The notes beneath the pieces were generated by a model that worked only from the letters and a program-made list of their open reading frames with translations, had not been told where the DNA came from and did no database searches. A DNA stretch of 60,889 nt, taken from Coprinopsis marcescibilis. Its lineage: Eukaryota; Basidiomycota; Agaricomycetes; Agaricales; Psathyrellaceae. Each line of letters begins with the position of its first letter. The first letter of the stretch is position 1. Below, piece after piece: positions 1 through 23,821 of the stretch. The translations under genes were made by a program, and so were the position numbers. The DNA is taken from assembly GCA_004369085.1 (NCBI GenBank), contig ML210293.1, forward strand, positions 17,585 through 78,473, read 5' to 3'.

Positions 1-449
1 TCAATGGAGCGCTCTGGGTCTCCACTGAACCATTTGGATAATTCGGCGCACACGGCAAGGGAGTGGCCCTGGCCTGAGTGCACGGAGGGATCCACGGCAC
101 GCTTGGTGGCTGCGATATGATCGGTGAAAATCACGATCATGCTGCAATCACCGAATTGAATTATTCAGATGATCGCCGCACGTAATGCATAGAGTTCGGC
201 ATCTGGGGCCGTAACTCTACCTGCAGTGAATTTGGCCTTGGTGACCAATCTGCCGCTAGAGTGCACCATGTAGCCAGCAATGGCCTGGTGCCGTACTTCC
301 CGGGGGACCGTGGCATCGGTCGCCACGACGTACACGTTCGGGATCTCATTCACCATCGTGAATTTAGCTTCCAGTATCCGCTCCCTCTCCTCAAGAGCCT
401 CCTTTCTCTTGCTCGGCTCCCTAGGGGGCACGAACTCGTCAAAGGTGAT
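1..449 (-). pseudogene. LINE-type RNase H fragment (non-LTR retrotransposon)
   Basis: Minus-strand translation reads as the RNase H domain that follows the reverse transcriptase in Tad/I-like LINEs. An opening VVATDATV strand is followed by DAELYALRAAI, the family's conserved acidic helix, and then IFTDHIAATKRAVDPS and a GHSLAVCAEL segment. A stop interrupts the frame just after RAAI, near position 165, so the copy is dead. It runs off the left window edge, so the rest of the element is unseen. On its upstream side it is fused in frame to a Ty1/copia fragment near position 450. The domain assignment comes from motif recognition only. Confidence 0.6.
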
Positions 450-669
450 ACGAAATGTAGGGGCAAAGATCTCTGTAAAATCAACTCCAGGGCGCTGGGC
501 ACAGCCCTTGACAACTATCCTGGCCTTGAAGCGCTCCATAGACCCATCTGGGTTGTGTTTGACCTTGAAAACCCAGCCAGAGCAAAGTGGCTTGATTCCA
601 GGAGGCAAATCAACAACCTCCCATGTCCCATTTCCCACCAGAGTCAAGAACTCGGTCTCAGCAGCACTC
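450..669 (-). pseudogene. Ty1/copia reverse transcriptase N-terminal fragment
   Basis: The minus strand encodes the beginning of a copia RT domain: EFLTLVGNGTWEVVDLP, then GWVFKVKHNPDGS, ERFKARIVVKG and QRPGVDFTEIFAPT. These are the classic first blocks of copia RT. The fragment stops abruptly at FAPTFR and continues in frame into LINE RNase H sequence. Upstream it is cut by transposon copy 1, whose terminus begins at 670. Neither the catalytic YVDD block nor the integrase is present, so it is a short relic. Confidence 0.7.
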
Positions 670-1500
670 GAGTACTTTACACTGGCCCACAGGTGTATGT
701 ACACTCCTCATACACTCCTCACACACATATTGTACACAACATGGACACAGTGCAGACAGAACATGAACACAGCTCATGCACTATATATCCACTCCTCATA
801 CACTCCTTGTACACTCCTCATACACTCCTTGTACACTCCTCATACACTCCTTGTACACTCCTCATACACTCCATAGACATAACATGAATACTTCATAGAA
901 ATTCAATCTAGAGACTTGGTGCAAATATCTTGTATCAATACACAAGTACATATGAATAATACAACAAAGCAAAACAACTACTATACGGTTTATACATGAC
1001 TTCTGAGAACAAATCTTCTTCTCTTTCCACCAACACAAGCTTACTAGACTCACAAATAGCCAGCCAACTGTTAGCTAATTTCTCTTTGTCTGGGCTACAT
1101 TAAGTTGCATATACAGCATGCAGTAACAGCCTGGTCTTGTCATGGTATTCCTGCATTGCAAGTCTAAGGCTCTTTTCCTGCAGACCCCAAGTTGAAACCC
1201 TCATAGTTTCATAGGCAGTATAACACTATATGGGGAGTGTACACAGGGTGGACAAGGAGTAGATAAGGAGTAGATAAGGAGTGTATGAGGAGTAGATGAG
1301 GAGTGTACAAGGAGTGTATGAGGAGTGTACAAGGAGTGTACAAGCACAACATATGCACACTGTGTACACTTCTTGGGTACTTTGTGGACACTTCATGTAC
1401 ACATTGTGAACACTGTGGACATAGTATGGACACAACATGGAGACACAGTGGATACATTATGAGGAGTGTACGTACACCTGTGGGCCAGTGTTAAGTGTAG
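670..1500 (+). mobile_element. KDZ-like deletion-derivative transposon, copy 1
   Basis: Left end reads GAGTACTTTACACTGGCCC. The right end, read inward on the opposite strand, is CTACACTTAACACTGGCCC. Next to both ends lie arrays of an 11-bp unit, TACACTCCTCA/TACACTCCTTG: direct at about 700-880 and inverted at about 1220-1345. The whole can therefore fold back on itself. The 330-bp core at about 881-1213 shows no coding sequence I can assign. The flanking 8-mers (662-669 and 1501-1508) do not match, so no target duplication is visible. Orientation is inferred from the two distinguishable ends shared with the other three copies. Confidence 0.75.
700..880. repeat. Subterminal tandem array of copy 1, left arm
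   Basis: Repeated 11-bp units of the form TACACTCCTCA and TACACTCCTTG, most regular at 789-870. The inverted partner array is at 1220-1345 (GTGTATGAGGA, GTGTACAAGGA, variant GTAGATAAGGA). In the middle of the left arm (720-780) a related but less regular stretch has TACACAACATG-like units. Confidence 0.85.
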
Positions 1501-2041
1501 CTAAATTGTGCCAAAGACCATGGGGTTTGAGTTGAAAGCCAGGTGTTAAAGTGAAATTTATTGTTTTCCTCTAGAGTCCTATCTTCTGAATGAGATGGTA
1601 TATTTATCTGATTTCTTCACAGAGTGTACAAGAGCACACTGCAAGCACCCTGTCAATATTTCAGAGAGCCTGTATCAGTGAGTCAAGTGATATGGCCATT
1701 TCAAGCCAACAATTTACCCCTATAAATCGTGTGAAACTTGATCAAATCTTCAATTTTGCAACATTTTGACTGATTTGCAGACTGCCTATCTCCTGAAAAA
1801 GCAAGCCAATATTCCTCAAATTTTGAGAGTAAGCTCCTCCCATACATTCCTTTGATGGCATAGAACTACAGCCCAAAAGATGTAAATATGATTGAGATCA
1901 CATTTGCAGGATACTAGTATGAGACAGTATATCCCATCCCACTCCTCTATTTTCCATCCAAATCCCATATCACTTGGTATATCTCTATCAAAATAGGATA
2001 CCTAGCCCCTGGTCAAAAATATTTCTGATACCCCTTGTAGT
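1501..2041. other. Stretch with no recognisable gene
   Basis: AT-rich sequence between transposon copy 1 and a degenerate Tc1-like relic. No long reading frame and no transposon terminus could be recognised. It may contain the far end of the Tc1-like relic, but no inverted repeat matching the candidate end near 3345 was found. Confidence 0.4.
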
Positions 2042-2940
2042 TTATGAGTTATGCCCAAAGAATGTGCTAGCCATCACTTTTGTTACCCACAAGTATGAGG
2101 TTCTGACATAATTCCACTGAGATCTTTTCCCATTCCTCCTGTACTTGGTCCCACAGCTCAGCAATACTTTGAGCTGGTTCTTTGTACTCCTCCAAACAGA
2201 TCTTGAGGTAGTTCCAGAGGTGTTAAATGGGGTCAAGGTCTGGAGACTGTGCTGGCCATATCATAGTTGTCTTCCCAAGGTCCTGGAAACACTGTTTAGC
2301 CAGTTTTGAAGTGTGTTTTGGGTCATTGTCTTACTGAAAAATCATGTCTTCGGAGTCGAGATTGTAAAATTCAAGGGTTTGCTGAAGTTCATCTCTGAGA
2401 ATGTTAGGGTACAATTAAGCATTTATCTTACCCTCTATCCTGGTGGCATACCCAACCCCTTTCCATGTCATACAGCCCCACATCATCAAGCTGCCTCCTC
2501 CAAACTTGACAGTTCCTTCTACCACCCTATCACTCAGACCCTCTTCCAATCCTCCAAAATCCACTCTGCATGCCTTTCAACAAGCTCTAACCTTGCTTTC
2601 CTATGCCGATAGAAGAAGAGGCCATGTATGCTCGACTACAGGTTACATACCTAAATTTTTGAGGTTTTGGCACATTGTTTGTGCAGATAGAGGTTTTTTG
2701 GTGATCTCCTGAAGTGCTTTGGCAGCTTGAGTAGCATTTTAAATCTTCCCCATCTTGATCATGCATTGAGCATAGTCAATATTGGCAGTAGAGAGAATAG
2801 CAGGGCAGCCACCAGGGAACTTGGGAAGGCTGGGACAAATCTTAGAGTGTAGTTTGCTGATTGCTCCTACACTAACAGCAGTTTCCTTGGAGATTTTATG
2901 CCCAGAGACTCCAGCAGCAAGCAGAGAGAGGATGTGAGAA
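2042..2940 (-). pseudogene. Degenerate Tc1/mariner-like transposase
   Basis: Read on the minus strand, the segment gives a DNA-binding-like start (QTSHILSLLAAGVSGHKIS), then GGGSLMMWGCMTWKGVG, then a DNDPKHTSKLAKQ block around the second catalytic Asp. It ends with WPAQSPDLDPI followed by HLWNYLK. These blocks are diagnostic of Tc1 transposases. Several stops interrupt it; one replaces the residue before the second Asp (Q-stop-D) and another sits where the catalytic Glu is expected. The copy is therefore inactive. A sequence at about 3326-3345 resembling a transposon end, read inward as CAGTGGCCACCCAAACTG, may be its 5' terminus, but no matching opposite end was found. Confidence 0.75.
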
Positions 2941-3949
2941 GTCTGAGAAGGTGATAGTTTGTATATGATAGGTTGTAGGTGATAGAATGGTTGTATGGGG
3001 GTTGTTGATGCATGGATGGACTCTATATAGGCTATGCTTCACATATCAGGTAATTTTATTTGGTGCTATTGCTATTTGGTTTTGGTAAACATAATCACAT
3101 GACTTTGTTGAAAACCCTCCAAAAAACTTGTACAACAAAACTGTTCACATGACTTGCAAGTTTGTGCTATGAGACTTAACTGCCAAATATGGGTGTGGGA
3201 ACTTAAAATTGGGCATGGCATTAGATCAAAGGCTTATCTAATACATCTGTTATTTCTGATATTTTACATAATTTTCTTCTCATGCTATAAAGCATTTATC
3301 TCAAAAGTACAAAACATGCAAACAGTTTGGGTGGCCACTGTAGAGCCCCAGCTACTAAGCTTCCCGTTCCCAGGCAGGTGGTTCACTTGTGCCAACCAGT
3401 GTGGATCCCCAACCTGTCCCAGGTCCCTGTCTTGCCAACAGCCAGCCGGGTATGTACTCTGAGGATTCCCCTTGGCCCAGAGTTGTCTCAGTGTCCAACC
3501 AGTTGCCCTGCATGTATAGCAGAGAACCCACTTGCACTATTGCAAGCAATGCCAGGCTGCTCATAACCAGCCCTTACTACTGCTGACTAACAACCCTACT
3601 AGCCTCGGATTAGGCCATTGCCAATGGTCCAGGTCTTCCAGGTGGGGGGTGGCCTGGGCCCATCTGGCCATTCAGCTTGTTATAAATATGTTCCTTGCTT
3701 ACTGATCCCTATGCTTGCTCTCCTGTTATAGGCACAACTGATAAGGTTTGACCCTACACAGCCACTTTGGGGTGATGCATTCAGTTCCCAGGATCGAGCT
3801 GCAGTGAATAGAAGCTGGCTAGGCCCCACACCCTCTGAGTGATCATCAGATCAGCCTCATTGCTATCCCTGGGAATTGCTTACCAACCCTAGTGATCCCG
3901 AGCATGTGACAGTATCCACTGTTGCTCACACGCCTAGCCCCAACTTCTT
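2941..3949. other. Stretch with no recognisable gene; possible Tc1 end
   Basis: About 1 kb without a supportable reading frame. The only structured piece is the possible transposon end at about 3326-3345. The remainder (3350-3950) is of intermediate GC content and may be the body of the tRNA-derived SINE whose head is at 3950-4075; this is inference only. Confidence 0.3.
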
Positions 3950-4075
3950 GGTTTCAGGGGATGAGAGGGAATTGAACCCTCAACCTTCTGGTGGCTAGCA
4001 CAGCCACCTCTACAGGTCTTTGGTGGCGGTTAGACCACTGGGCTACTATAGCCCAGGTACAGGACAACCAGCCTC
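3950..4075 (-). repeat. tRNA-derived SINE head (A and B boxes)
   Basis: On the minus strand a pol III type 2 promoter is visible: an A-box-like TAGCCCAGTGGTCTAA and, downstream, a B-box-like GGGTTCAATTCCC. The spacing is long, as in tRNAs with a long variable arm (Ser/Leu type). The acceptor stem and anticodon arm do not fold cleanly, so this is a tRNA relic rather than a working tRNA gene. It begins right after a copia gag-like reading frame on the same strand. Confidence 0.5.
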
Positions 4076-4087
4076 CAGAGGCTTTGG

Positions 4088-4250
4088 GAGCAAAGCCAGG
4101 CCTCCATATCACCAGCCCAGCTGTTGTAGTTGGTGTGGCCGAGTTTTACGAATGATGGCAATGATAAGGACGTGGTGTAGTGACAAGGATGGGGGTGAGG
4201 TATGATGAGCAAAGAATTGGAGCAAATGGATGCGAGTGAAGTGCAGGAGA
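4088..4250 (-). pseudogene. Copia gag N-terminal fragment
   Basis: Minus-strand translation contains LPSFVKLGHTNYNSWAGDM followed by EAWLCSQSLWRLV. This matches the pattern of copia gag polyproteins (leucine, NY-x-x-W, M-x-x-L, then LW-x-x-V). The frame is cut right after LWRLV by the tRNA-like sequence. There is no zinc knuckle or protease downstream. Confidence 0.5.
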
Positions 4251-4350
4251 GCAAAAATGAGTAGAGTTCTGTTGTTGACAGTGACTTGGTGTGTTGCTTG
4301 TTGTTAAAGCAGCCCAGGGCCCATAACCTGTTGAAATCAGGCAGCTGGTG

Positions 4351-5078
4351 TTACACTTAGCACTGGCCCACAAGTCCATGCAGCCACCATGCTGGAGCCG
4401 TGTCAGGGCTGTGCTAGAGCTATGCAACTTCATGTGGCTGCCGTGCAAGCTCCATGCCATGTCCATGCAGCCACTGTGCGGCAGCCGTGCAATCTCCATG
4501 CGGCCACCATGCGGCCATTGTACGGCCCTTCCACAGCAGCTGTATGATAGCCATACAAGTTCTGTGTGGCCATCATACAGCTTTCATATGGCAGCCATTG
4601 TATGGCTCTCACATGTCATCTAGGCTAGATCCATAGAAGTATAATGCTATAGTCCATGCTAGAGCCTTGCCAAAATTGACAAAACTGAAATAGTAGATAA
4701 AAAAACTATAGTTACAGTACATTCTATTTTATTTATTCTTCTTCTTCCTGTTCATCCTCCTCATCTTCCTCCTTGTTTCTTTCCTGTTTGGATTGCACAA
4801 TTTGAGTGTGATAGTAGAGCATCACATGAATCATCCAGTTGAAGTTATTGGCAGTCTTCCATTTGAGAATTACAACAAATCCTCCTCCTATCCATGCAAC
4901 TGGAGCTGTGCCAGAGCCACACTCTAGCCACACGGCTGTGGCATGGCCTTCACACGGCCTTCATATGGCAGCCGCACTAGAGCCATGCCAGAGCCGCACT
5001 CCAGCTGCATGGCTGCACCAGCTCCATGCCAGGGCTGCACAGCTGCCACAAGAACCTGTGGGGCAGGGTAAAGTACTC
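4351..5078 (-). mobile_element. KDZ-like deletion-derivative transposon, copy 2
   Basis: Left end (3' end of the element) is TTACACTTAGCACTGGCCC. The right end, read inward, is GAGTACTTTACCCTGCCCC. It is flanked by AGCTGGTG and AGCTGGTA, an 8-bp target duplication with one mismatch. The subterminal arrays use a GC-rich unit built around CATG/GCATGC (for example CATGCGGCCAC) at 4375-4615 and 4905-5040. The core carries the C-terminal end of a transposase reading towards the left end. Together this indicates a non-autonomous, internally deleted copy. Confidence 0.8.
4736..4890 (-). pseudogene. C-terminal remnant of KDZ-type transposase (copy 2)
   Basis: The minus-strand frame reads a GG-(F/Y) segment, then ILKWKTANNFNW, then HVMLYYHTQ, and ends in an acidic tail (EEDEEDEQEEEE) with a stop. 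The same block, with about half the residues identical, is found in copy 4. From memory, the pattern NAWLGG...FNW...HxMLxYHT is characteristic of transposases associated with CxC5/CxC6 cysteine clusters (KDZ group) in mushrooms. Only the last 50 or so residues remain; the upstream part is deleted and replaced by the array. Confidence 0.55.
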
Positions 5079-5814
5079 AGCTGGTAGTAGCCTGATGCTC
5101 TACAAGCAAGACTGGAGTCCTATAGTCAGGGAATGAACTAAGGGACTCCAGAGCAAACTACATCAGTGTATACAAGGCAGGAACTGATGCCAACAGTCCA
5201 AGTATCCAAATGGAGACTATATGATGTAAATATATCACAGGATAAATAACTCAACAAGTATTTGGAATGGGAATGTCCCTTACATACCAATGGAAAGAGG
5301 GAAATGAGACAGTTCTGGTGATACCAAATATAAAAGGAATAGATAAAGGGAAAAGTCCATAGAGTTGAAGTTGAAGATGCTGAGAACACACACACCAATT
5401 GTAACAGGGTGAAAGGGTGGGTTGGGGTTAGGCTCCTGTGAGGCCAGAAGACTCTCCTTTGGGCAGCAGCATGCTTCAGTGCTATAGGTTGTCTGATAAG
5501 CAGCCAACGGAGGTGTGTGGACTGGATGTGTTAGAAGTGTGTGATGTGTCAGCACCTTCCTAATATGCTCAGAGTTCCTGAACCTGGACTAAACTGCTTG
5601 GCAGTTGCATACAGTCCACATTGCACATCCAGGTACATACTCATCCTTGGCTATCTAACTAATAGTCAACTCCAGAAGAAGCATGGCTTCTTAGACCCAG
5701 TCATTAGCAGCCCCACTGGGTATAACAGGCAGAGCAGGGTGTCCACACCCCCATACCACTACCATTGACCATTTGTCTGGAGCTGACCATCCTGTTAAAA
5801 TAGAGCAATGCAAT
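5079..5814. other. Stretch with no recognisable gene
   Basis: About 735 bp between transposon copy 2 and the tRNA-like element. No supportable reading frame. Because the tRNA-like head at 5815-5886 faces left, the lower part of this stretch is a candidate for the SINE body. Confidence 0.3.
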
Positions 5815-5886
5815 CATACCAGGGATTGAACCTAGGACCTCACCAACACATGAGGGATGCTCTAACCACTGAGCTATATGATCTTA
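5815..5886 (-). repeat. tRNA-like SINE head, near-complete cloverleaf
   Basis: The minus strand gives a 72-nt tRNA-like sequence. It has acceptor strands GATCATA/TATGATT, a perfect D arm GCTC...GAGC around AGTGGTTA, and a T arm with TTCAATC in the loop. The A box (TAGCTCAGTGGTTAGAGC) and B box (GGTTCAATCCC) are well kept. The anticodon arm (CCTCA...TGAGG) has an 8-nt loop and is displaced, so it is unlikely to be a functional tRNA. It starts exactly where a LINE endonuclease fragment ends, on the same strand. Confidence 0.55.
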
Positions 5887-6086
5887 GGAATGTGATTTTG
5901 CCAGTTGCCAATGTTGATGACAGCAGATAGGGGCACATGATCTGATGGCCCCTGGATGTCAGGTAATTGCTCAACAGTGCCTGCCAAGCAATCCCTAGAA
6001 TCAACAAACACAAGGTCAATGACTGATGTGCCACCCCCCTGTGCTCTGGAAATGAAGGTGGGGCCTTGGTTGGCCAGAATGGCCAA
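5887..6086 (-). pseudogene. LINE endonuclease (APE) C-terminal fragment
   Basis: Minus-strand frame contains GPTFISRAQGGGTSVIDLVF and then DIQGPSDHVPL. These are the S/T-x-IDL strand and the SDHxPL motif that end apurinic-type endonuclease domains of LINEs. The fragment is about 65 residues and is cut on one side by transposon copy 3 and on the other by the tRNA-like element. Confidence 0.65.
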
Positions 6087-6659
6087 ATCAAGCTACACTT
6101 ATCACTGACCCATGGCTCTATGTACCATGTACATATAGTCTACATGAAGTCTACATGTAGTATATACACTATGTGTAAAGTATACATAAAGTATACATAA
6201 AGTGTATGTATCATGTATATACTGTGTACGTACACTTTATATAATCTCTATGTACACTCTACATAATCTCTGCATACACTACACATAAACTCTATATATA
6301 CTGTTTGTGTTAGACTTGTGTATACAAAATACTTAGTCACTGTAGCTTTATATATTGGTTTCCATTTGACAATTTTAATGTCTCATATAAATAACTAATG
6401 TACAACTTAAAAATGACTTCTTTTCCCTTTAATCTTAACTTCAATCTTCATCATCTGTACCACTCTCCTTAGCTTCATCAACCTAATCCTCCCTACTAGC
6501 CTCCATGTTACCTACACCATTTTGCCAGCTGTGCTCCCAGTAGCCTCAAGTTCAATTCCCATACACACCACTTTTTTTTCTTTAATTTGCAACATGTATT
6601 TACCAACAAGGGAACCCTTTTTGACTAATTTTTTGCAGTAATTTATAAATAGGTACATA

Positions 6660-7983
6660 CACATCCTGTACAAAAGTGTCCGGACACCACGTGACATCAG
6701 CGCGGTACACGTCAAGTGGTGGTTCGAAATGTTCTTCATTATACCATAACCACTCTGTTCTACCTCATTCTATGACTGCATCCAAGACGAATCACATCGA
6801 GCATGACACCCCAACCAAAAACAGGTTCATTGGGGCCATGCAGGCCACCGGAAGGCTCAATCAATCTGCTCGCCTTGCTGGTCTGTCCACATCAACTGCA
6901 TCCGACCTGTGGAAGAAGTATCAATTGACAGGATCATGCAAGAATAGACCTCAGTCAGGGTGTCCACCTAAGCTGAGCATCCGTGACAAGCGAATGATCA
7001 TGCAAGACATCAAATCCAACTGAAGAAAACCCTTTGAACAAGTTGCAAACAAAGCCCCGGGGAATATCAGCACTTGCATTGTTCAGAATCTCGCTGCTGA
7101 AGAAGGGTATCACAGACAGGTTGCATGCAAGACTCCATATGTTTCCCCTTTGCAGAAGAAGAAAAGGCTTGCTTGGGCACAAGAGTTCAAGCAGTTTACA
7201 GATGAGAATTGGAGAAATGTCATCTGGTCTGATGAATGCTATGTCCATCTTGATGATTGGCATGGGAGAATATGGGTTACACGACAGCCTGGGGAGGAAT
7301 ATGATGAGAGCTGCACTGTTCCAACTTTCAAGCAGTCTAACATTCGTGTTATGGTGTGGGGTTGCATTATGGTAGGGAAGAAGGGGCCATTGGTTGTACT
7401 GGAGTATCCAGGAGGGAAGGGAGGCGGAATGACAGGGGAAAGATACATTACACAGGTTCTTCAAGGGAAATTACTCAAGTTTTTGGATGAAGTATGGAAG
7501 GAGAGGCCTGACATTGTCTTTCAGCAAGATAACACCCCATGCCATACTGCCAAAGCAACCAAACACTGGCTAGCCAACCATCACATCACATTGTTCCCAC
7601 ACCCGCCATCTTCTCCGGACATAAACCCTATTGAACCGCTCTGGACAGAGCTCAAATCCATCATCCGCAACCTTCCACACTGCCCTTCTACTGTTCCTCA
7701 ACTCATCAGCGCTGTCAAGTCTGCCTGGGATGCTCTCGAGATTCCCCAAATTGACAAGTACACAAAGACCATGTCCAAACATATTGCAGCAATTATTAGC
7801 ACCCAAGGCTCACATACTAAATATTAGCCCTACACAACCATACATTCCACATGTCTTTAATGGTTATCAGAGTTTTGTTTGCATACATACAATAAATTGC
7901 AAGGAATTAAGCTTCAAAGATTTTCTGCGCAGATGCGCTTGCATTCAATCACATGGTGTCCGGACACTTTTGTACAGGATGTG
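6660..7983 (+). mobile_element. Tc1/mariner element with 35-bp TIRs, nested in copy 3
   Basis: The terminal inverted repeats at 6660-6694 and 7949-7983 match at 34 of 35 positions and contain GTGTCCGGACAC. The element is flanked on both sides by TA (6658-6659 and 7984-7985), the target duplication of this superfamily. It encodes one transposase reading left to right, with a single internal stop. The almost identical ends suggest a fairly recent insertion. Because it interrupts copy 3, copy 3 is older. Confidence 0.95.
6772..7827 (+). pseudogene. Tc1-like DD34E transposase, one in-frame TGA
   Basis: Catalyses cut-and-paste transposition of the surrounding element. Translation from ATG 6772 gives a helix-turn-helix region (IGAMQATGRLNQSARLAGLS), then the catalytic core: first Asp in VIWSDECYVHL, second in VFQQDNTPCH, and Glu in SPDINPIEPLW. 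Thirty-four residues separate the second Asp and the Glu, the DD34E spacing of Tc1. The frame is open except for a TGA at 7021-7023, where CGA (Arg) is likely in active relatives; that is a single C-to-T change. The frame continues unchanged to the TAG at 7825. An upstream in-frame ATG at 6676 lies inside the TIR and is less likely to be used. Confidence 0.9.
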
Positions 7984-10554
7984 TACAGTATACATACATA
8001 CATGGTGCACATAGTATCTGTATACAGGGCATATAGTCAATACATGAAATGACAATGGAAAGCAGTGCAAAATATATTTATGTAAGCAAGAATAGTGTGA
8101 GCTGATCCCCTGACAGTGTGCGATTGCGAGCGACTGCAGGGTTGCGCCAGCAAGCACACCATTGAAATATTGAAATCCCCACCCTCCGTGACGAAGTCCG
8201 TGATGAAGTCACGGACAAGCTGAAAGCTTGTGTATGTACATGGGACATCCAGTATATGTATACAGGTTATATAGTATATATATACAGGTCGTACAGTATA
8301 CGTACACAGGTTATATAGTATATATATACAGGTCGTACAGTATACGTACACAGGTTATATAGTATATATATACAGGTCGTACAGTATACGTACACAGATT
8401 ATATAGTATATATATACAGGTCATATAGTATATATACACAGGTCATACAGTCTATGTACACAGGTCATAGAGTATATGTACATGGGTCATAGAGTATATG
8501 TACATGGGTCATACAGTCTACATACACAGGTCATCCAGTCTACATAGAGGACACATACACTTTTCATAATGTGTACATAACGTGCACATGTTGTGTACAT
8601 GTTGTATATGTATGGTGTACATGTAGTGCACGTACTGTCTATATAGAGCCATGGGTCAGTGTAAAGTACTCCACCCATCAGGCAACAAGACAGTTGCTTG
8701 GAAATTACCAAAGCCACCAAGCCATGTCATCAATCATCATCATCACTGTCATTCCCACTGTCCTTGCTGCTTTCCTTGTTGCTGCCTTGTTCCCTTTCCA
8801 TTGCTGCTGCAATAAACAACTTCAATGTGTGCTTAGGACCCTTCTTTTCAATATCTCGATGTGGTTTCTCATCAGTGAATGATTTCCTGGCTGCTTTGGC
8901 AGCCTTCTTCTGCTGATTCCATGCTGCGATCTCTGCCTGGAGCTCTTGCTTTTGGTTGGCAATTTCCTCATTCCTGAGCTCCCATTCCTCACATGCCACC
9001 TTCCAGTCTACCCTTGCCTTGGCTTTCAACTCGCTTTCCTTTTCTTTTGCCTTCTGGGCTTCTGTGAACTCGACAACTCTCTCAAAGAATGCATCACCTG
9101 ACATCAGTTGGGGTAGGCCATTGCCAAGAAGTTTTCCCTTGCCCTTCCCCTTGTTTGCCTGCTTCTCTTCTTTATGACTGAGCTGGTGACGAAGCTTGTT
9201 GCAATAGGCTTTATTGAGTATCTGTGATTTCTGAAGCTGGATAACACGGTGTTGTAATGCCTCATTTGCAGCCTCAGATTCTTGAAGTGCTGCCAGGAGG
9301 TGGACTTCATTCACTGACTGTGGTTTGATTTTCAGCATGTCGGCAGTGGAGGGGTGGTGGATTTAGAGATGGGACCAGTTGTGGCTTGTATCATAGGTGT
9401 GTCTGATGTGATTGGTTTCACTCCCAGAAGATGACCAACCCTTGATTTTGCCAGCTCCTGTGCAGCTTCACCAACAATCGCTTTTCAACGTGCGACCTGG
9501 GCATCTGACAGTGATGGTGGACAGCTTTCATCATCTTCAGCAATAGTTCCAAGTGGTACGTCATCCTCCAATTCAAGGTTTCGCAGAATCTTCTCTAGGT
9601 GGCAGAAAGGTGTGGCAAGTAGCACAGGGAGATTCAATTTGACAGAGGATGATGTCTTGCTTGGGGCAAACATTTTTGGTGTGATGACGGATGGATCGAA
9701 GGGGTGAACACCGGTCTTCCGGAATGCTTCACAAACATTCTCCTCTGTCAGTGCTGCCATGTGTGCCTTGCTGTAGATTTGAATGAAGTTTTCTTTTGTG
9801 ATTTCTTGGCTGGTTATTCGCACGAAATTGTCCCTCTCTGTACTGAGGCATCACTTGAGGACAGCAAATACAACAACATCCAGTCCCTGGTAAATGTGTG
9901 TTGTGTGTGAGGGGTAGCAGAGCATGACAATCTTGTGCTCTCATGCAAAGCTGAGAAACTCAAGGCTATAGTGGGAGGTGTGACCATCCACTAGAAGCAG
10001 CCAGTATTCACCATCTGCCGTCTTGACCATTGTTGCAATATGGAATAGCTTCAACCAATCAAGGCCAATTTGCTTGTTCATCCATCCTTTCTCAGAATAG
10101 CTGAGTACTTTACTCTGGCCCACAGGTGTATGCCAGGTATACATATACCTAGCATATACCTGGTGCACCCCCCATGCATACCCAATGTATACCTGGTGTA
10201 TACCTAGCATATACCCCATGTATACCTGGTGTATACCTGATGTATGGTATATGCTAGGTATACACTAGGTATATGTATTGTGCTTGAGATGGTTGCAGTG
10301 AAGCATTGGACAACTATTGAGGGGCATCATTTTGTACTGTCCACAAAGAAGAATGGGGAGACAGGTGTCATGTCGTAGAATGCCTAGGAATATGCATTGC
10401 AAAAACCAAAGCCTGCAGATTGCATCAACCTATCTGGCAGAAATATCAAAAGGAACATAGTCGAACATGGACAACAGGAATCTGATGAGCCTTGCAGAGG
10501 CCAAATAAAGGATCTCAATGTGGTCAGGTTGGACAACTCATGATGAACCTCAAA

Positions 10555-10862
10555 AAGAACACCTGGAGTGAAGTATTACTTTAAGCCCAAAAGATACTAT
10601 TGTGTGGAAACTATCTGTTATCCATGTGCAACAGTGTTGTCAAGTCGTGGGCTATATAACACAAGTTTGTGAACAGTTGAATGCATGGCTTGGAGGATAT
10701 GGTTCTATTTTAAAGCCAATAACTGCTACAAACTTTAACTAGACTGTTCATGTCATGCTATACTATCACACTCAAACTATACTTGCAAAGCAGGAAGCAA
10801 AAGAAAAAGGAGAAAAAGGAAAGAATGATAAGGATGAAAAAGATAATTTGTACAAGGTATAC
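10555..10862 (+). pseudogene. KDZ/CxC-type transposase fragments (copy 4)
   Basis: A first frame gives KRYYCVETICYPC, resembling the (R)YFCVETICxPCG block of CxC-cluster-associated KDZ transposases as I remember them. After a frame change around 10640-10660 the translation becomes CEQLNAWLGGYGSILK, then TATNFN, a stop, HVMLYYHTQ and a Lys/Glu-rich tail. In complete family members these blocks are separated by a long catalytic region that is missing here, so this is an internal deletion product. The tail frame runs into the N gap. Confidence 0.55.
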
Positions 10863-10872
10863 NNNNNNNNNN
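10863..10872. other. Assembly gap flanked by a 95-bp exact duplicate
   Basis: Ten Ns separate two identical 95-bp stretches, 10768-10862 and 10873-10967. Exact duplication on both sides of a short placeholder gap is what appears when two overlapping contig ends are scaffolded without merging. The true sequence probably has one copy and no gap. Confidence 0.9.
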
Positions 10873-11039
10873 ACACTCAAACTATACTTGCAAAGCAGGA
10901 AGCAAAAGAAAAAGGAGAAAAAGGAAAGAATGATAAGGATGAAAAAGATAATTTGTACAAGGTATACACCAGGTATACATATACCTGATGTATGGTATAT
11001 GCTAGGTATACACTAGGTATATGCTGGGTATATGTATAC

Positions 11040-11140
11040 CTGATGTATACCCAGTGTATACCCAGTGTATACCCAGTGTATACCCAGTGTATACCCAGTG
11101 TATACCCAGTGTATACCCAGTGTATACCCAGTGTATACCC
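11040..11140. repeat. Homogeneous 11-bp tandem array in copy 4
   Basis: About nine consecutive TATACCCAGTG units with no visible change, in the right subterminal arm. The uniformity contrasts with the mixed units on either side and suggests recent local expansion. Confidence 0.9.
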
Positions 11141-12190
11141 AATTACCTAGTGTATACCTGATGTATACCTAGCGTATACCTAGTGTATACCTAGCATATA
11201 CCTAGTGTATACCTAGTGTATACCTGATGTATACCTAGTGTATACCTGATGTATGTATACCTAGCATATACCTAGCATATACCTGTGGGCCAGAGGTAAG
11301 TGTAGGAATAGCTGATGCTTTGAATCACCAATGTGAGTGCAAAATCATTATTAGCAGTGACAATAGCTTACGATGCATTGGCAGGATTGTTCTGTTTCCA
11401 CTTGATTTGATACCCTTTCCCTTTGAAAATCATTGCTGGAGGAAGAGAGCTACCATTGGCACAGATTGAGACAATAATGGTGATGTTTTTGCGGTTCCTG
11501 GTCCTTTGCTGATATTCGAGGCCAGACCTCTGAGGACCAATCACATGCTTGTGATCTGACCTGTATGGCTGGCATCCAACCTCATCGACTCCATAGATGT
11601 TGTGAGGCTTGATGTTGTAGTCCTCCAAAGCTTTCTTCAGAAGGTTGTAGAATGCTTTGTTGGTATTTTTGTTGGCTGCCTGTGCTTGTTTCATCTCCAG
11701 TAGTGTGGACCAGACAGACTTGAGCTGATCCGAATGCTTTTTCACAAACCGTTCTGTATAGCACTTCCCAACTCCTTTTTCCTGGAATTTGTCTCCGAGT
11801 CAAGCATTCAGTATGTTGTCAATGTCCAATTTGAGCTGTTTATAGTTGAGTGGGAATCCTTGATTGGCAGAAGTCAAAAGATGATTGATGATGAGCTCCG
11901 TCTCCTCAGGTAAGAGCCATTCCTGGTCCTGAACTATCTTGAGGCAGCTTTTCCTTCCTTTCCATTGTTCATTCAGGGTGTGGTGGCTGAGCTTGATTTC
12001 CTTCCCAGTTTCTGTGAAGAATTCCCCCTTAATCCACAGGCAGACAGCAGGAGTGCCATCCCATGGGACAACTGGCAGCTTTGATTGCTCAATGTCATAT
12101 GCCTTGATTGCCTTCTGCATCAAGGATTCCTTGATTTGTGATGCCTCTCAATCTTTGTCTGCCTTTGACTTTGCCTTGTTGACCATCCTA

Positions 12191-12751
12191 GATGGGTTGA
12201 GAGTGCAGAATGGCAGTGTGGAAAGGATACCAAGCAGAGAAATTGGCACAAACTGGGAGGATCTCTCTGTATGGGTTCCCCAATCATTTTCTGTGTCAAC
12301 TCCTTAATCCTCCTGTGCTTGGCTATTACTCCCTAAAATTCAAATGGGCTCGGGAATGTATTCAGTGATCCTCTAATGCTCACTGGGCTGAATCTGAGGC
12401 AGTATGTGGGCTAAATGGCCATGCTACAGCCCTGAACAATTTTGAAGGGACCCGAAAACAGTGTAATTTCCAGTCAGTATTGATGTTGCAACCGGTTTTT
12501 CTCAGCAGGCATCTGTCCCCTCATTACAAAAATTTAGCGCCATATTTTCACTATGCTAGAGACATTATATACGCAGTTTTGAGACGGTTCACTTTGTTGT
12601 AGAAGAGCTACAATGCAAACGAGGCAAGCATGTCTTGTTGGGTGATTGTGTCTCATCATGTGGTCAATGACCATATGATTACAACAGCAACAGACCCAAC
12701 ATCTATGACCAATACTAAATTCAGGAGAATTTCAGAGATAAATGGGGGTAA
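12191..12751. other. Stretch with no recognisable gene
   Basis: Sequence upstream of the pogo transposase start. It may include the element's 5' untranslated part and terminus, but no TIR could be matched to the 8671-8730 side. Otherwise nothing recognisable. Confidence 0.3.
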
Positions 12752-13152
12752 TGTTACGTATATGGGCATCTTCAAAGAAGACCTTGATTGGCTGATAATG
12801 AAGGAACACAAGTTACAGTCAGAAGGTCTTATTGGATATAGTTTTTCTTGATAAACAGACATGAGGATAGATAAGAACATTATTTATAGTATGATAACAG
12901 ATGGACCTCATCGATTACATTGATAGGAGATAACAGAATTATATTTAAACTTACCTTGTTAGGTAGTTGTACTGTAGCTTTGATCTCATTTTACTTGTAT
13001 CTACAAGTAGTCTTGCAATACAAGTCTTCTTACTTGTCTTACTTGATCTCAATTGAACACTCAATCCATCTCAATGTTACCTTGGTGCGACTCCTTGCTT
13101 CTCTCAAGACTACCAAATGGCTAAGGCGTATTACTTGCCTTGAATCGTAACA
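12752..13152 (-). repeat. Probable solo LTR
   Basis: A 401-bp segment begins and ends with TGTTACG/CGTAACA, the TG...CA borders of LTRs in a 7-bp inverted repeat. On the minus strand a TATA-like CTATAAATAATG lies roughly two thirds along, fitting a U3-R boundary. No second LTR or internal domains are near. The five bases on each side do not match, so a target duplication is not supported; recombination or decay could explain that. Confidence 0.45.
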
Positions 13153-14042
13153 CCCATGAGCCTCATGCCACATGCGCCTAGACACACCTTAACAAAAAAT
13201 AACAACAATCGCATCTAAGTTATATTGGTATCTACATCAGTAATCAACATCTTTCCTCTGCTCTCCTACCAGGTTGCACCATAGCAAACCAACAGCCATT
13301 TGATATGTATGATAAACTATGCAGTATCAATTTTCCTTGTAACATAGTTACTTTACAACACTAGACCACCACTACCACCATGCCCCAAAGTTAGAACTGT
13401 CTTCTCCCCCCTTGCCTTTGCTGCTTATTTGGCTCTCCATACCCTTGCTTTTGACTCAACTTGCTCTGCACCCAATCTGCACAACCATACTTTCAAGCTT
13501 CAAGTCTCCACTCAACTTGCTCTGCACAACCTTGCTTCCAACCTGGACCTTGGACTGCTGACACCTCAGACCTACTCTGCATAGCCTTGCTTTCAACTTG
13601 CTCTGCACTTTGGGCAGCAGAGATATGTATGGTGCCTCTTTTCAACACAGTCTCTACCTTCTGGTGTGTTATGGTCTGTGGATCAGCCATGGACCAATGG
13701 TGGATGTGTCACAGCAATCTGCATAGTGTCTGTTTAGTGTATAATATGTATTATTACTATTATTGAAATGTCTATCATATTGGTTCTGTGACAGGGAATC
13801 TGGCATGAAAAAGGCTCATTTTAAATCCCTGTGCAAACTGTATATGACTACACTCCAAACTTGATTCTTGGCATGAGGTTATGTCTGGAGTTGTGTGGGA
13901 CAACAGTAATCTCACTGGGATTCATCAGCTTAAATTCACCCCCCAAATTATCATAAACATCTTTTGAACACAGCCATCCAACACATTATCTATAGATTAC
14001 CTACAACAGCAATGCACATGCAACAGATGAACAATCATCATC
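13153..14042. other. Gene-free boundary between TE island and gene-dense region
   Basis: No gene recognised. At 13440-13620 a degenerate repeat recurs about three times (CAACTTGCTCTGCAC, paired with CCTTGCTT), suggesting an old tandem or LTR fragment. The last 150-200 bp up to 14042 presumably include the 3' untranslated region of the ZUO1-type gene, which ends at 14043. Confidence 0.45.
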
Positions 14043-15615
14043 TCAGGTTTCCTCGGTAGCACGCTGTTGTCGGCGGGCTTTCTTGGCAGCGTTGGCGGCG
14101 GCAGCCTTGGCCTTTTTAGCGTCGGCACGGACAGCCTAAAGCACACTCAGCACGCGACTCTGAGCAAAATAGAATTAATTCGCACCTTTTCAGCCTCCTC
14201 CTTGGCCTTGGCCTCTTCTTCGAGGCGCTTCTTCTCGGCTTCTTCCTCCTGTTTGGTCTTTTTAGCGGGAACATTGGGGGCAGCAGCCTTCTTCTTGGCT
14301 TCCCTAGCTTCCTTCTCCTGCTGCTTGATCCGCTTGATACGGGGGTCGATGCTGGAGAACCATCAGACCTTGTGGCAATACGGGAAATACTTGAAGACAT
14401 ACCTCAAAGCGAGATCAACCAGGCCGCGCAACTTGGTCGTGTCCTCCTTCTTTCTACGAGCACGTTCTGTCTTGTTCTTCTTCTCGGTATAACGCTTGTC
14501 ATCACGGCTGAAAGTGAATCGCTTTCAAGAAAAATCCACAATGCAAGTCAGCCGGTCACGCACCTGTCACTTCCCTCATTGACCTCCTTATCCAACCATT
14601 CAAAGCTCCTCCAACTGTCAAAGTTGTACCAGAAATCGTAAAAGGCCTCAACCTCTTGCTTGGAGGCATCGACACCGCCAAGGCCAGGAACAGGCTGGGT
14701 CTTTGAGAAACGAGAGAACAAGTCGAAAGCGGTCGAGAACTCTTTGAAAAAGTCGAAGTTCTTGCTCTAACGAATGATATTTGCATGAGAACAGCAAACA
14801 TAACTCAGACGAACGTCGAATGCGTACCTTGGTCGCAGCGGCAGTGGGGATGTATTCCTCCAGCTCCATAAACTGGGGATCGACAGAGTCGAATTGCCTT
14901 CGCTTCTCGGCGTTGGTCAGAACCTCGTGTGCCTTTTGGATGCACTTGAAGAACGCGTCGTCGTTGGTGTTCAATTGGACGCCGGTTTCGAAGCCAGGGG
15001 TGGCGGATGCCTTCTTATCGGGATGGTGCTTCAAGACCTTTTTGCGATCTAAAAAGAGAGGGTAAGGAGCTGGATGAATATCGCGGTTGGATTAAACATA
15101 CGGGCAATCTTGATCTGCTCGGCAGTAGCACGGTAGCGCAAGTGGGAGAGGCCGAGGACGGCATACAGATCGTGTTTCTGTCGACAGGTTGTAAATACGG
15201 GCGCTAGCAGGGCGAAGATCGATGCACACTCACCTTCCATTCCTTGGGATCCAATGTCAACAGCTCCTCAGGTTCTTCCTCTTCTCCGACACCGAGATCA
15301 TCCTCCTGGGCATCGATAGTGGGGTTCAAGGCAGCATGGCGCTCGCGTTCAGCCTCCAAATGCTTGTCAAGCTCGGTAAACGAGTGAGCGTGGTGCAAAG
15401 AGAGTCTGAGATGGTTGATATAGGCAGGGCCGACTTGCAAAAGCGAGCGATGACCACTGGGATGGGGTGCTTTCGGACAGCAATAAGATATAGAGGTCGA
15501 CGATGAGGACCAGGCCAAACTTACCCGACAACCTCGAGGTCGAGGGAGCACTGGGGGTCTTGTAGGTAGTGGGGGTAGGAGGGATAGCAATGGGGAGAAT
15601 CTGTACAGAAGCCAT
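14043..15615 (-). CDS. ZUO1: Zuotin/MPP11-type ribosome-associated J protein
   Basis: J-domain co-chaperone of the ribosome-associated complex: it docks at the exit tunnel and stimulates Hsp70 Ssb on nascent chains. Eight exons (15525-15615, 15234-15469, 15102-15177, 14828-15048, 14564-14766, 14403-14507, 14186-14351, 14043-14135) give 396 aa. The J domain starts at KHDLYAVLGLSHLRY and contains the HPD motif in LKHHPDKK, followed by the Zuo1 signature FFKEFSTAFDLFSRFSK and FYDFWYNFDSWRSFEWLD. A long Lys/Ala/Glu-rich charged helix ends the protein (KKARRQQRATEET), close to yeast Zuo1 in length, with no SANT domains as in MPP11. The hydrolase gene upstream on the same strand ends only 84 bp from this ATG. 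Confidence 0.93.
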
Positions 15616-22210: not shown

Positions 22211-23821
22211 ATGGGCCTGCTCAGAGGCCGTCTGGGTCGCTCGTCGCCATCGATTCGTTCTTTCTTTCATCACAATATCACCAGGCAAACTATGCGTCCC
22301 CTCACAATCGAATCTCTCAACCCTGCCCTGCTCAAGGTCGAGTACGCCGTGCGCGGTGAGCTCGCTATCAAGGCAGAGCAGTACAGGGTCAAGCTCCTCG
22401 ACAAGGACCCAGGTCTTCCATTCGATAGGGTCATCTCGTCCAACATCGGGAATCCTCAGCAAAAGGGGCTTGATCAACCACCCATCACCTTCGTTCGCCA
22501 GGTATCCCAGAATCTCTTTTTTAATTGCTTGTTCACAGCTAATCATCGGCTAGGTCGCAGCGCTCATGGAATGGCCAGCTCTCGCAGACATCGCGCCAGA
22601 TGCTTTCCCCAAGGATGTCATCGCGCGTGCCAAAGAACTCTATGCAGAGATTGGATCGATTGGTGCTTACTCTCATAGTCAGGGTGTCCCCTATATTCGC
22701 AAGAACGTCGCAAAGTTCATCGAGGGCAAGCTCACCTATTTTTGTCCGCGTTTACCCGTGCTAAACCCCGTCCAGACCGCGATGGCTACCTTGCTGATCC
22801 AAACCACATCTTCCTTACCGGAGGCGCATCTGTAGGAGTGTCATTGTTGATCAACATGTTGATCTCCTCTCCAACTTCTGGAATTCTCATCCCGATCCCC
22901 CAATACCCTCTGTATACCGCCACCCTCGCCCAACACAACGGCGTCCCCATACCTTACTACCTCGATGAGGCCCAAGGCTGGGGCACCTCTGTCGAAGAGA
23001 TCGAGGTGGCGCTTGATAAAGCACACCAGCAAAACGTGGTCCCCAAGGCTCTGGTCATCATCAACCCTGGCAACCCGACTGGTGCATTGTTGGACGAAGC
23101 GACCCAGATCAAGCTTGTACACCTTTGCGAAAAATACTCCCTTGTACTTCTCGCTGACGAAGTCTACCAATCCAACCTCCACAAACCCGACCAATATCCT
23201 TTTACTTCTTTCAAGAAGATAGTGAGAAAGATTGATTCCCACGTGCCTCTCGTATCTTTCCATTCCATTTCCAAAGGCGTGTCCGGAGAATGCGGACGCA
23301 GAGGAGGCTACTTTGAATGCGTCAACATCTCAGAACCGGTAATCGCCCTCATGTACAAGATGGTATCCGTAGGCCTGTGCCCTCCGCTCTCTGGCCAGAT
23401 TGGTGTTGATTCCATGGTTCGGCCACCAAATCCAGGGGAGGAGAGCTACGAGCTCTGGAAGCAAGAAACCGACACCACCCATCAGGCACTTGCTTCTCGC
23501 ACTCACACCATGGCTGAACGCCTCAACAGTCTTCCTGGCGTTTCTTGCGTCGATTCTCCAGGCGCACTATACCTCTATCCCCAAATCATCCTCTCCCAGA
23601 AGGCGCAAGAAGTTGCCCGTGCGGCCGGCAAGGAGCCAGACGCCTTCTACGCACTGGCATTGCTCGATGCAACTGGTATCTGCGTTGTTCCTGGAAGCGG
23701 GTTTGGACAAAAGAAGGGCGAATGGCACTATCGGTTGACTTGCCTCTGTCCAGGAGTGGACGAATACGTTGGAAAGCTAGAAAACTTCCACAAGTCATTT
23801 GTTGAGAAGTACGGCCTTTAA
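22211..23821 (+). CDS. Alanine aminotransferase
   Basis: PLP enzyme interconverting alanine + 2-oxoglutarate and pyruvate + glutamate. Exons 22211-22501, 22554-22725 and 22776-23821 give 502 aa. Family blocks: YSHSQGVPYIRKNVAKFIE, HIFLTGGASVGVSLLI, PIPQYPLYTAT, INPGNPTGALL, LADEVYQ, and FHSISKGVSGECGRRGGYFE with the PLP-binding Lys. The first 27 residues (MGLLRGRLGRSSPSIRSFFHH) are arginine-rich and read as a mitochondrial presequence. A second ATG at 22292 (MRPLTIESLNP) would give a cytosolic form. Intron 2 starts with GC (GCAAGC) rather than GT; only that choice keeps the frame and restores IEDRDGYLADP. Confidence 0.95.

Follow-up and report, generated by a model that had tools for sequence, protein, structure and literature searches.

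In plant CACTA transposons, conserved ends occur together with divergent subterminal repeats in families of one genome, for example Tgm/Tgmt* of soybean, and the protein TNPA reads these repeats, which differ between families sharing conserved ends (PMC2613891). Here we describe elements of a similar organisation in a fungus. A stretch of 60,889 nucleotides of Coprinopsis marcescibilis (assembly GCA_004369085.1, contig ML210293.1, positions 17,585 to 78,473; hereafter the window) contains four short DNA transposons with the same ends, each with arrays of 11-bp units in both arms. The original prediction, made from the letters of the window alone, had stated that no description of such behaviour was known; divergent subterminal repeats with conserved ends had in fact been described for plant CACTA elements (PMC2613891).

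Other described systems share single features with these elements. A measured case of helically phased subterminal motifs that nucleate a filament is the IS607-family transposase (PMC6188088). Galileo includes chimeric copies without matching target duplications (PMC3573991). The poMSH4 insert of Pleurotus ostreatus, which is 6.8 kb long and present in several copies, carries clustered short repeats with a BC5NWY signature; no Kyakuja-Dileera-Zisupton (KDZ) transposon was reported at the expected distance (PMC7641404).

We put the probability at roughly two in three that the window elements are non-autonomous derivatives with internal deletions, belonging to at least four sister families (five in the genome) of a CxC5/CxC6 DNA transposon, in which the tips would be cut, the phased arrays would be bound and each array would have been fixed in a parent element.

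Four window copies and five genomic families

The window copies are genuine: all four are non-autonomous DNA transposons whose ends are fixed and whose two arms carry subterminal arrays of 11-bp units. They were found exactly where predicted, at 670-1500, 4351-5078, 6093-8671 and 10103-11305, one end being GAGTACTTTAC and the other CTACACTTA (variant TTACACTTA in copy 2). Copies 1 to 4 are one member each of families A, B, C and D, respectively, and their features are as follows, with array periods from Tandem Repeats Finder (TRF).

670-1500, plus strand: copy 1, family A; left end 670, right end 1500; no target duplication
790-872, plus strand: copy 1 left array; TRF period 11/22, lag-11 identity 0.63
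1230-1414, minus strand: copy 1 right array; TRF rows of period 11/22/33, lag-11 identity 0.63
4351-5078, minus strand: copy 2, family B; right end 4351 (TTACACTTA), left end 5078
4784-4897, minus strand: copy 2 transposase C-terminal remnant; tblastn 65.8% over 38 amino acids against the family C remnant
6093-8671, minus strand: copy 3, family C (YGTANAC units); right end 6093, left end 8671; no target duplication
6444-6521, minus strand: copy 3 transposase C-terminus remnant; tblastn 88.5% over 26 amino acids
6658-7985, plus strand: nested Tc1/mariner-like element within copy 3, outside the family; inverted ends CACATCCTGTACAAAAGTGTCCGGACACC, flanking TA
8233-8534, minus strand: copy 3 left array; TRF period 22/44, lag-22 identity 0.70
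10103-11305, plus strand: copy 4, family D; left end 10103, right end 11305
10276-10383, plus strand: copy 4 transposase remnant, CxC6 part; 75% over 36 amino acids against family B on contig C134
10568-10793 (10568-10636 and 10650-10793), plus strand: copy 4 transposase core and C-terminus remnants
11033-11284, plus strand: copy 4 right array; 22.8 units of 11 bp (TRF), lag-11 identity 0.79

All eight window arms have the 11-bp period, with lag-11 identities of 0.42-0.79 that were reached by none of 1000 shuffles in any arm. The undecayed units in register are CGTACACTCCT in family A, of which copy 1 carries the decayed forms TACACTCCTCA and TACACTCCTTG, and CGTATACCTAG in family D. The unit of copy 2 is GC-rich, around GCCGTGCGGCC (lag-11 identity 0.42 and 0.49). 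Target duplications flank copy 2 (7/8; 4343-4350 and 5079-5086) and copy 4 (GAATAGCT, 8/8; 10095-10102 and 11306-11313). No transposase remnant was found in copy 1 (670-1500). The length of copy 3 includes the nested Tc1-like element (6658-7985), which has matching inverted ends and a DDE_3 open reading frame at 7024-7827 (E 6.5e-12). Copy 4 contains a gap of 10 N (10863-10872) between two identical 95-bp stretches (10768-10862 and 10873-10967), which are probably an unmerged assembly overlap, and its length is therefore unreliable.

The genome (36.3 Mb, 448 contigs) was surveyed for both ends. With up to two mismatches the left-end pattern occurs at 52 places, against 2 for the reversed control, and the right-end pattern occurs at 59 (control 21). 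A relaxed left pattern, allowing one mismatch, matched 51 places (control 4) without adding a clearly new class of 19-base ends, a search that says nothing of the sequence behind unread ends. Sequence was read behind 83 ends (41 left, 42 right), and bases ~10-30 place 82 of these in five families, with between 5 and 31 ends per family: A (10 left, 9 right), B (12, 19), C (11, 10), D (3, 2) and E (4, 2). Arrays agree within each family, which overturns the expectation that every copy would have an array of its own. Behind the remaining end (C305:8537-8556), whose left tip is perfect (GAGTACTTTACCCTGCCCCACA), there is no 11-bp array; this end, which represents a sixth family or a copy that was truncated, was excluded from the family statistics.

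The family counts include a right end of family B that has lost its array after ~40 bases (C97:8273) and a family A end with only 47 bases (C259). Sharing of 7-mers was compared in the 78 A-E arms, out of 82, that have 100 bases or more ahead of a run of N, and periods in 79, with C134, C335:15040 and C417 used as held-out checks only. Outside the read set are left ends on C2, C13, C233:8632, C246:873, C257:1763, C287:2666, C365, C384, C433:10877, C224:7950 and C227, right ends on C36, C224:7245, C282:29715, C287:488, C323:7622, C431 and C447, and nine two-mismatch right-end places, of which many are expected by chance (control 21).

Fourteen end pairs lie within 3.5 kb and give short elements of 696-2579 bp. 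Their 8-bp flanks are exact in 8, 7/8 in 2 and absent in 4, including window copies 1 and 3 (3/8). Such mismatched flanks suggest that these elements arose by recombination between copies, by analogy with chimeric Galileo copies (PMC3573991). A search for long elements among the listed left and right ends found no pair on one contig beyond 3.5 kb. Element ends occur within a few hundred bases of contig ends on C11, C61, C174, C193, C236, C254, C299, C335, C362 (both ends) and others. The arrays thus appear to break the assembly, and complete autonomous copies may be missing from it.

Common tips and inherited arrays

The tips follow the side of the element, and the arrays follow the family. 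At positions 1-9, agreement is 0.93 on the same side across families and 0.45 between left and right of one family, and bases 13-20 are common to all families (0.89-0.93). At positions 21-30 the left and right ends of one family agree more (0.79) than the same end across families (0.54), and beyond these positions the values are 0.63 and 0.37. The proposal that termini stay fixed while arrays are replaced, with both arms following, therefore holds between families, although the window copies on which it was built are single members of different families.

Copies of one family share 0.28-0.72 of their array 7-mers on the same side, and left and right arms within a family share 0.13-0.46. Between different families the mean is 0.02 for left against right (maximum 0.08) and 0.03 for the same side (shuffles 0.02-0.04), with A and C somewhat above background (0.06-0.12). 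Array words shared at about background between most families are what would be expected had unrelated elements converged on similar 20-bp tips, an explanation that is refuted by the remnants of one protein in all five families and by the sharing of both side-specific ends. Coding DNA is 65.3-85.4% identical between families and 96.5-99.2% within them (short segments). The closest pair in coding DNA is A and C (79.6-85.4%), and on the left their phase profiles are also the most alike (0.75), which fits a stepwise change of the arrays; B and D depart from that order.

The array is inherited within a family, and copies of a family share it across contigs. This bears on the suggestion that arrays are rewritten whole within single copies, the two inverted arms undergoing gene conversion or template switching. 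In Galileo, long inverted repeats are known to exchange and to expand in tandem (PMC3573991), and the left and right arms of a copy do share the family unit, as had been predicted; however, so do the other copies of the family, on other contigs. Left-right similarity within a copy is also no higher than between copies (B 0.059 vs 0.068, C 0.114 vs 0.113, E 0.217 vs 0.213) in a test of low power on 12 paired copies (B 6, C 4, E 2), with A and D, at one pair each, outside it. No own-copy excess was present in these 12 pairs, either raw or CpG-blind (permutation P 0.41-1.0). Homogenisation across the arms of single copies is thus unsupported, and we regard copy-level rewriting as very improbable. 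Since copies of a family share the unit and their own two arms are no more alike than those of other copies (12 pairs), the unit probably changed in a parent element, in both of its arms, and its deletion derivatives spread afterwards.

An 11-bp period locked to the element end

The predicted unit length of about one helical turn is borne out by an exact 11-bp period in all 8 window arms and all 10 family arms. Among lags 3-30, the strongest identity is at 11 or 22 in every family arm, lags 10 and 12 are low, and the three held-out ends show the same periodicity. The phase counted from the element end is also common to the families (rank among 14,641 rotations of the five profiles, P 1.4e-4 left and 7e-5 right). 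Restricted to bases 69-200, this test gave P 1.4e-4 (left) and 2e-3 (right), and the weakest subset of families and bases tried gave P 0.015.

In register, the majority units of the left arms are CaTACACTcCT (A), TGTAcACTgTA (C), TGTATACCttA (D), tGAAGAcTCTc (E) and TGCGGCtgtgG (B), where lower case marks bases present in less than half of units. Agreement among A, C, D and E exceeds expectation (0.26) at phases 6, 7, 9, 0, 1 and 2 (0.41-0.57), slightly at 4 and 8 (0.32) and not at 3, 5 and 10 (0.19-0.27), and B agrees clearly with the other families only at phases 6 and 7 (0.40, 0.47). A, C, D and E share a core in this register, YG-N-A-N-A-C, which B lacks. In left arms it starts at phase 6 in 77/96 cases in A, 52/58 in C, 28/29 in D and 12/14 in E, counts that describe rather than test the core, as it was drawn from the same arms. 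The reversed core, GTNTNCR, starts at phase 1 of the right arms in 41/76 (A), 32/67 (C), 8/40 (D) and 5/8 (E) cases, and is also held by left arms (A 8, C 32, D 13, E 16). The YG peak of individual left arms falls at phase 6 in 9/10 copies of A, 10/11 of C, 3/3 of D, 3/4 of E and 3/12 of B, where 7/12 peak at phase 8. When each family was left out in turn, the shared register, in either orientation, scored highest in 6 of 10 arms (both arms of A and C, left arms of D and E); it was not top in both arms of B or in the right arms of D and E.

The original prediction had the units differing completely and the arrays rewritten as a whole. The first statement does not hold: A, C, D and E keep a core in register, which B lacks. 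The second fails, as period and register are kept throughout, and the core in four of the five families. This also bears on neutral turnover, in which slippage would have driven drift between old families, with 11 bp an ancestral relic under no selection. The arrays do diverge far more than the coding remnants, and some show clean tandem expansion (22.8 TRF units), but slippage is expected to alter period and register, and yet the period is exactly 11 in every family arm and the end phase is common to families. We consider neutral turnover rather unlikely.

CpG register and decay

Within families A and D the arrays decay at CpG. The dinucleotide at the unit joint is CG, CA, TG or TA in 104 of 105 units in A, and CG, CA or TG in 24 of 24 in D. 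This is the trace of CpG deamination, and so TACACTCCTCA and TACACTCCTTG are decay products of one unit. Decay of one ancestral unit, named beforehand as an observation that would speak against rewriting, is therefore seen within families (the A and D variants) and not between them. Remaining CpG in left arms lies at phase 6 in 25/28 cases in A, 15/39 in C, 11/13 in D and 10/10 in E.

In the window, the observed/expected CpG ratio is 0.29 in the element-rich part (1-15000) and 0.92 in the gene part (15000-60889), with GC contents of 0.44 and 0.52. This contrast is as expected of a methylated transposon island beside genes.

The arrays could themselves be methylation sensors or silencing targets, with one CpG per helical turn, in a fixed register, read by an element protein or by host methyl-CpG machinery, and with CpG as what selection keeps. 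The low CpG ratio of the element-rich part fits this, as does the frequency of CpG and its decay products at phase 6 of left-arm units (0.77 in A, 0.70 in B, 0.76 in C, 0.96 in D, 0.74 in E). However, phase 10 in A scores just as high on this measure (0.80) and phase 8 in B almost as high as phase 6 (0.68), B has its undecayed CpG at phases 8 and 4, values in right arms are lower (0.29-0.72), and the CpG may be simply part of a binding core. As a full explanation, methylation sensing has perhaps one chance in a handful. Somewhat better placed, though still tentative, is a reading in which the array is constrained as geometry more than as sequence, with one turn per unit, phase-locked in both arms, and YpG (CpG) at a recurrent phase, the rest of the unit varying from one sister family to another; it could then act as a phased filament site for a CxC5/CxC6 transposase, perhaps read through methylation, and a change of unit would split families that no longer cross.

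The encoded protein

Remnants of one CxC5/CxC6 protein occur inside all five families. In family B (C134), CxC5 (PF18718, E 2.2e-23) and CxC6 (PF18721, E 7e-14) lie in one protein. CxC6 is present inside the E elements of C323 and C178 and also behind the E end of C30, and A, C and D carry only partial remnants. An RNase H-like core is predicted for this protein from a structure model of a 312-amino-acid homologue (P0066, 64 sequences); an earlier model (P0035, 15 sequences), with a predicted local distance difference test (pLDDT) score of 44.6, was not used. A PDB sequence search with a 170-amino-acid remnant gave nothing useful.

The elements had been called KDZ-like. This is apt insofar as Pfam names CxC5 and CxC6 as KDZ-associated, and the KDZ-type 8-bp target duplication (Zisupton, fungal KDZ1) is exact in 8 of 14 pairs. 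The KDZ domain itself, PF18758, was not found in or near the elements, those cut by contig ends being outside this test. It has 23 matches in the genome, and on the three contigs that also carry a listed end (C254, C257, C297) the two are more than 10 kb apart. It is likewise absent from the precomputed Pfam column of all 54 and 120 homologues listed. A KDZ catalytic domain was accordingly rejected as the driver of these elements, PF18758 not being near the listed ends.

Other classes were also compared. Membership of CACTA/EnSpm is contradicted by the ends (GAGTACTTTAC/CTACACTTA) and by a duplication of 8 bp rather than 2-3 bp, and membership of Galileo (P superfamily) by a duplication of 8 rather than 7 bp and a CxC5/CxC6 protein in place of a P-type transposase. 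The 8-bp duplication would fit hAT, and no hAT domain is among the Pfam matches of the 10 proteins scanned, none of which is a complete element protein.

A model for the arrays

In the model that we favour, the outer 20 bp would be the site of cleavage and synapsis, read by a conserved transposase core. The array would be a one-face run of cooperative binding sites, spaced one turn apart, for the same protein or a partner, by analogy with the IS607 family. Selection would keep the spacing, the register and, mostly, the short core, leaving the rest of the unit free to vary through tandem duplication and co-adaptation with the DNA-binding part of the protein. A new array would be fixed in both arms of an autonomous parent before deletion derivatives spread, and copies would then only decay.

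Several observations weigh against this model. Transposase binding to the arrays is inferred by analogy, and Foldseek E-values for the transposase core are weak (best 0.02), with matches re-examined within Foldseek's own list only. Family B fits poorly: there is no YGNANAC in its 12 left arms, and only 1/85 of its left-arm CpG is at phase 6, phases 8 and 4 being dominant. Core orientation is mixed: in right arms GTNTNCR outnumbers the forward core (76 to 35 in A, 67 to 28 in C, 40 to 4 in D and 8 to 6 in E), and the left arms of E hold 16 reversed and 14 forward cores. In right arms, phase 6 is the modal CpG position only in A (6/8) and D (6/9), compared to 22/230 in B, 2/20 in C and 1/3 in E. 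Coding DNA is closer between B and D (74-75%) than between C and D (65-67%), yet the left array phase patterns agree at 0.24 and 0.69, respectively. Unit-by-unit homology of arrays between families is not visible, the in-phase offset of 0 being best in 3 of 20 comparisons, and unit-by-unit orthology was rejected on this basis. Finally, no intact full-length element was seen with both ends.

One genome thus holds five sequence-divergent arrays that share a phase, have the same ends and accompany related transposases. What the transposase reads, whether sequence, spacing or methylation, is therefore directly testable with five natural arrays.

Other features of the window

At 165-707 (minus strand), an open reading frame that matches a Copia-type reverse transcriptase (RVT_2, E 1.6e-13) extends into copy 1 at its left end. 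ARAGORN places a tRNA-His(gtg) at 5810-5883 (minus strand) in the transposon-rich part, which may be a tRNA-derived short interspersed nuclear element. The best match of a host gene at 22742-23821 (aminotransferase) is in Coprinopsis cinerea, at 89% identity.

Comparison with known systems

Like CACTA (En/Spm) elements, the present families combine family-divergent subterminal motifs with conserved termini and deletion derivatives, and for CACTA motifs co-divergence with the DNA-binding protein has been proposed, with methylation sensitivity possible (PMC2613891). Unlike CACTA, with its 3-bp duplication and CACTA ends, they have 8-bp duplications, GAGTAC/CTACAC ends, another protein and an exact 11-bp spacing phased to the end. 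The IS607 family is similar in its direct motifs in helical phase near the end, cooperative transposase assembly being described for IS607 (PMC6188088). It differs as a bacterial serine recombinase system with no target duplication, whose four 9-bp motifs lie ~20-60 bp from the end and do not extend over hundreds of bases (PMC6188088). With Galileo/Foldback the elements have in common long inverted arms, tandem repeats (there in some subfamilies) and internal deletion, whereas Galileo belongs to the P superfamily, with a 7-bp target duplication and ~210-bp repeats (PMC3573991).

KDZ elements resemble them in being fungal, in 8-bp target duplications (Zisupton; Cryptococcus KDZ1) and in cysteine-cluster domains (CxC1 in Cryptococcus) (PMC12730594, PMC12810828). 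The differences are that the present elements show no PF18758 match in or near them and that Kyakuja has 7-bp duplications and no inverted ends (PMC12730594). The poMSH4 insert has both CxC5 and CxC6 domains; it was linked there to Copia retrotransposons, in a main text without the terms inverted repeat or target site (PMC7641404). Fungal CxC5/CxC6 genes are here placed inside DNA transposons with 8-bp duplications.

In the open-access literature, as far as it was covered, we found no description of the 11-bp phase lock, of the recurrent CpG register or of CxC5/CxC6 genes in DNA transposons with 8-bp target duplications. From plants, related transposon families are already known that have their ends in common and differ in their subterminal repeats, and the present elements are mostly of this known kind; what they appear to add is an 11-bp phase strictly locked in all families, a CpG register that recurs, and CxC5/CxC6 genes within 8-bp-duplication DNA transposons.

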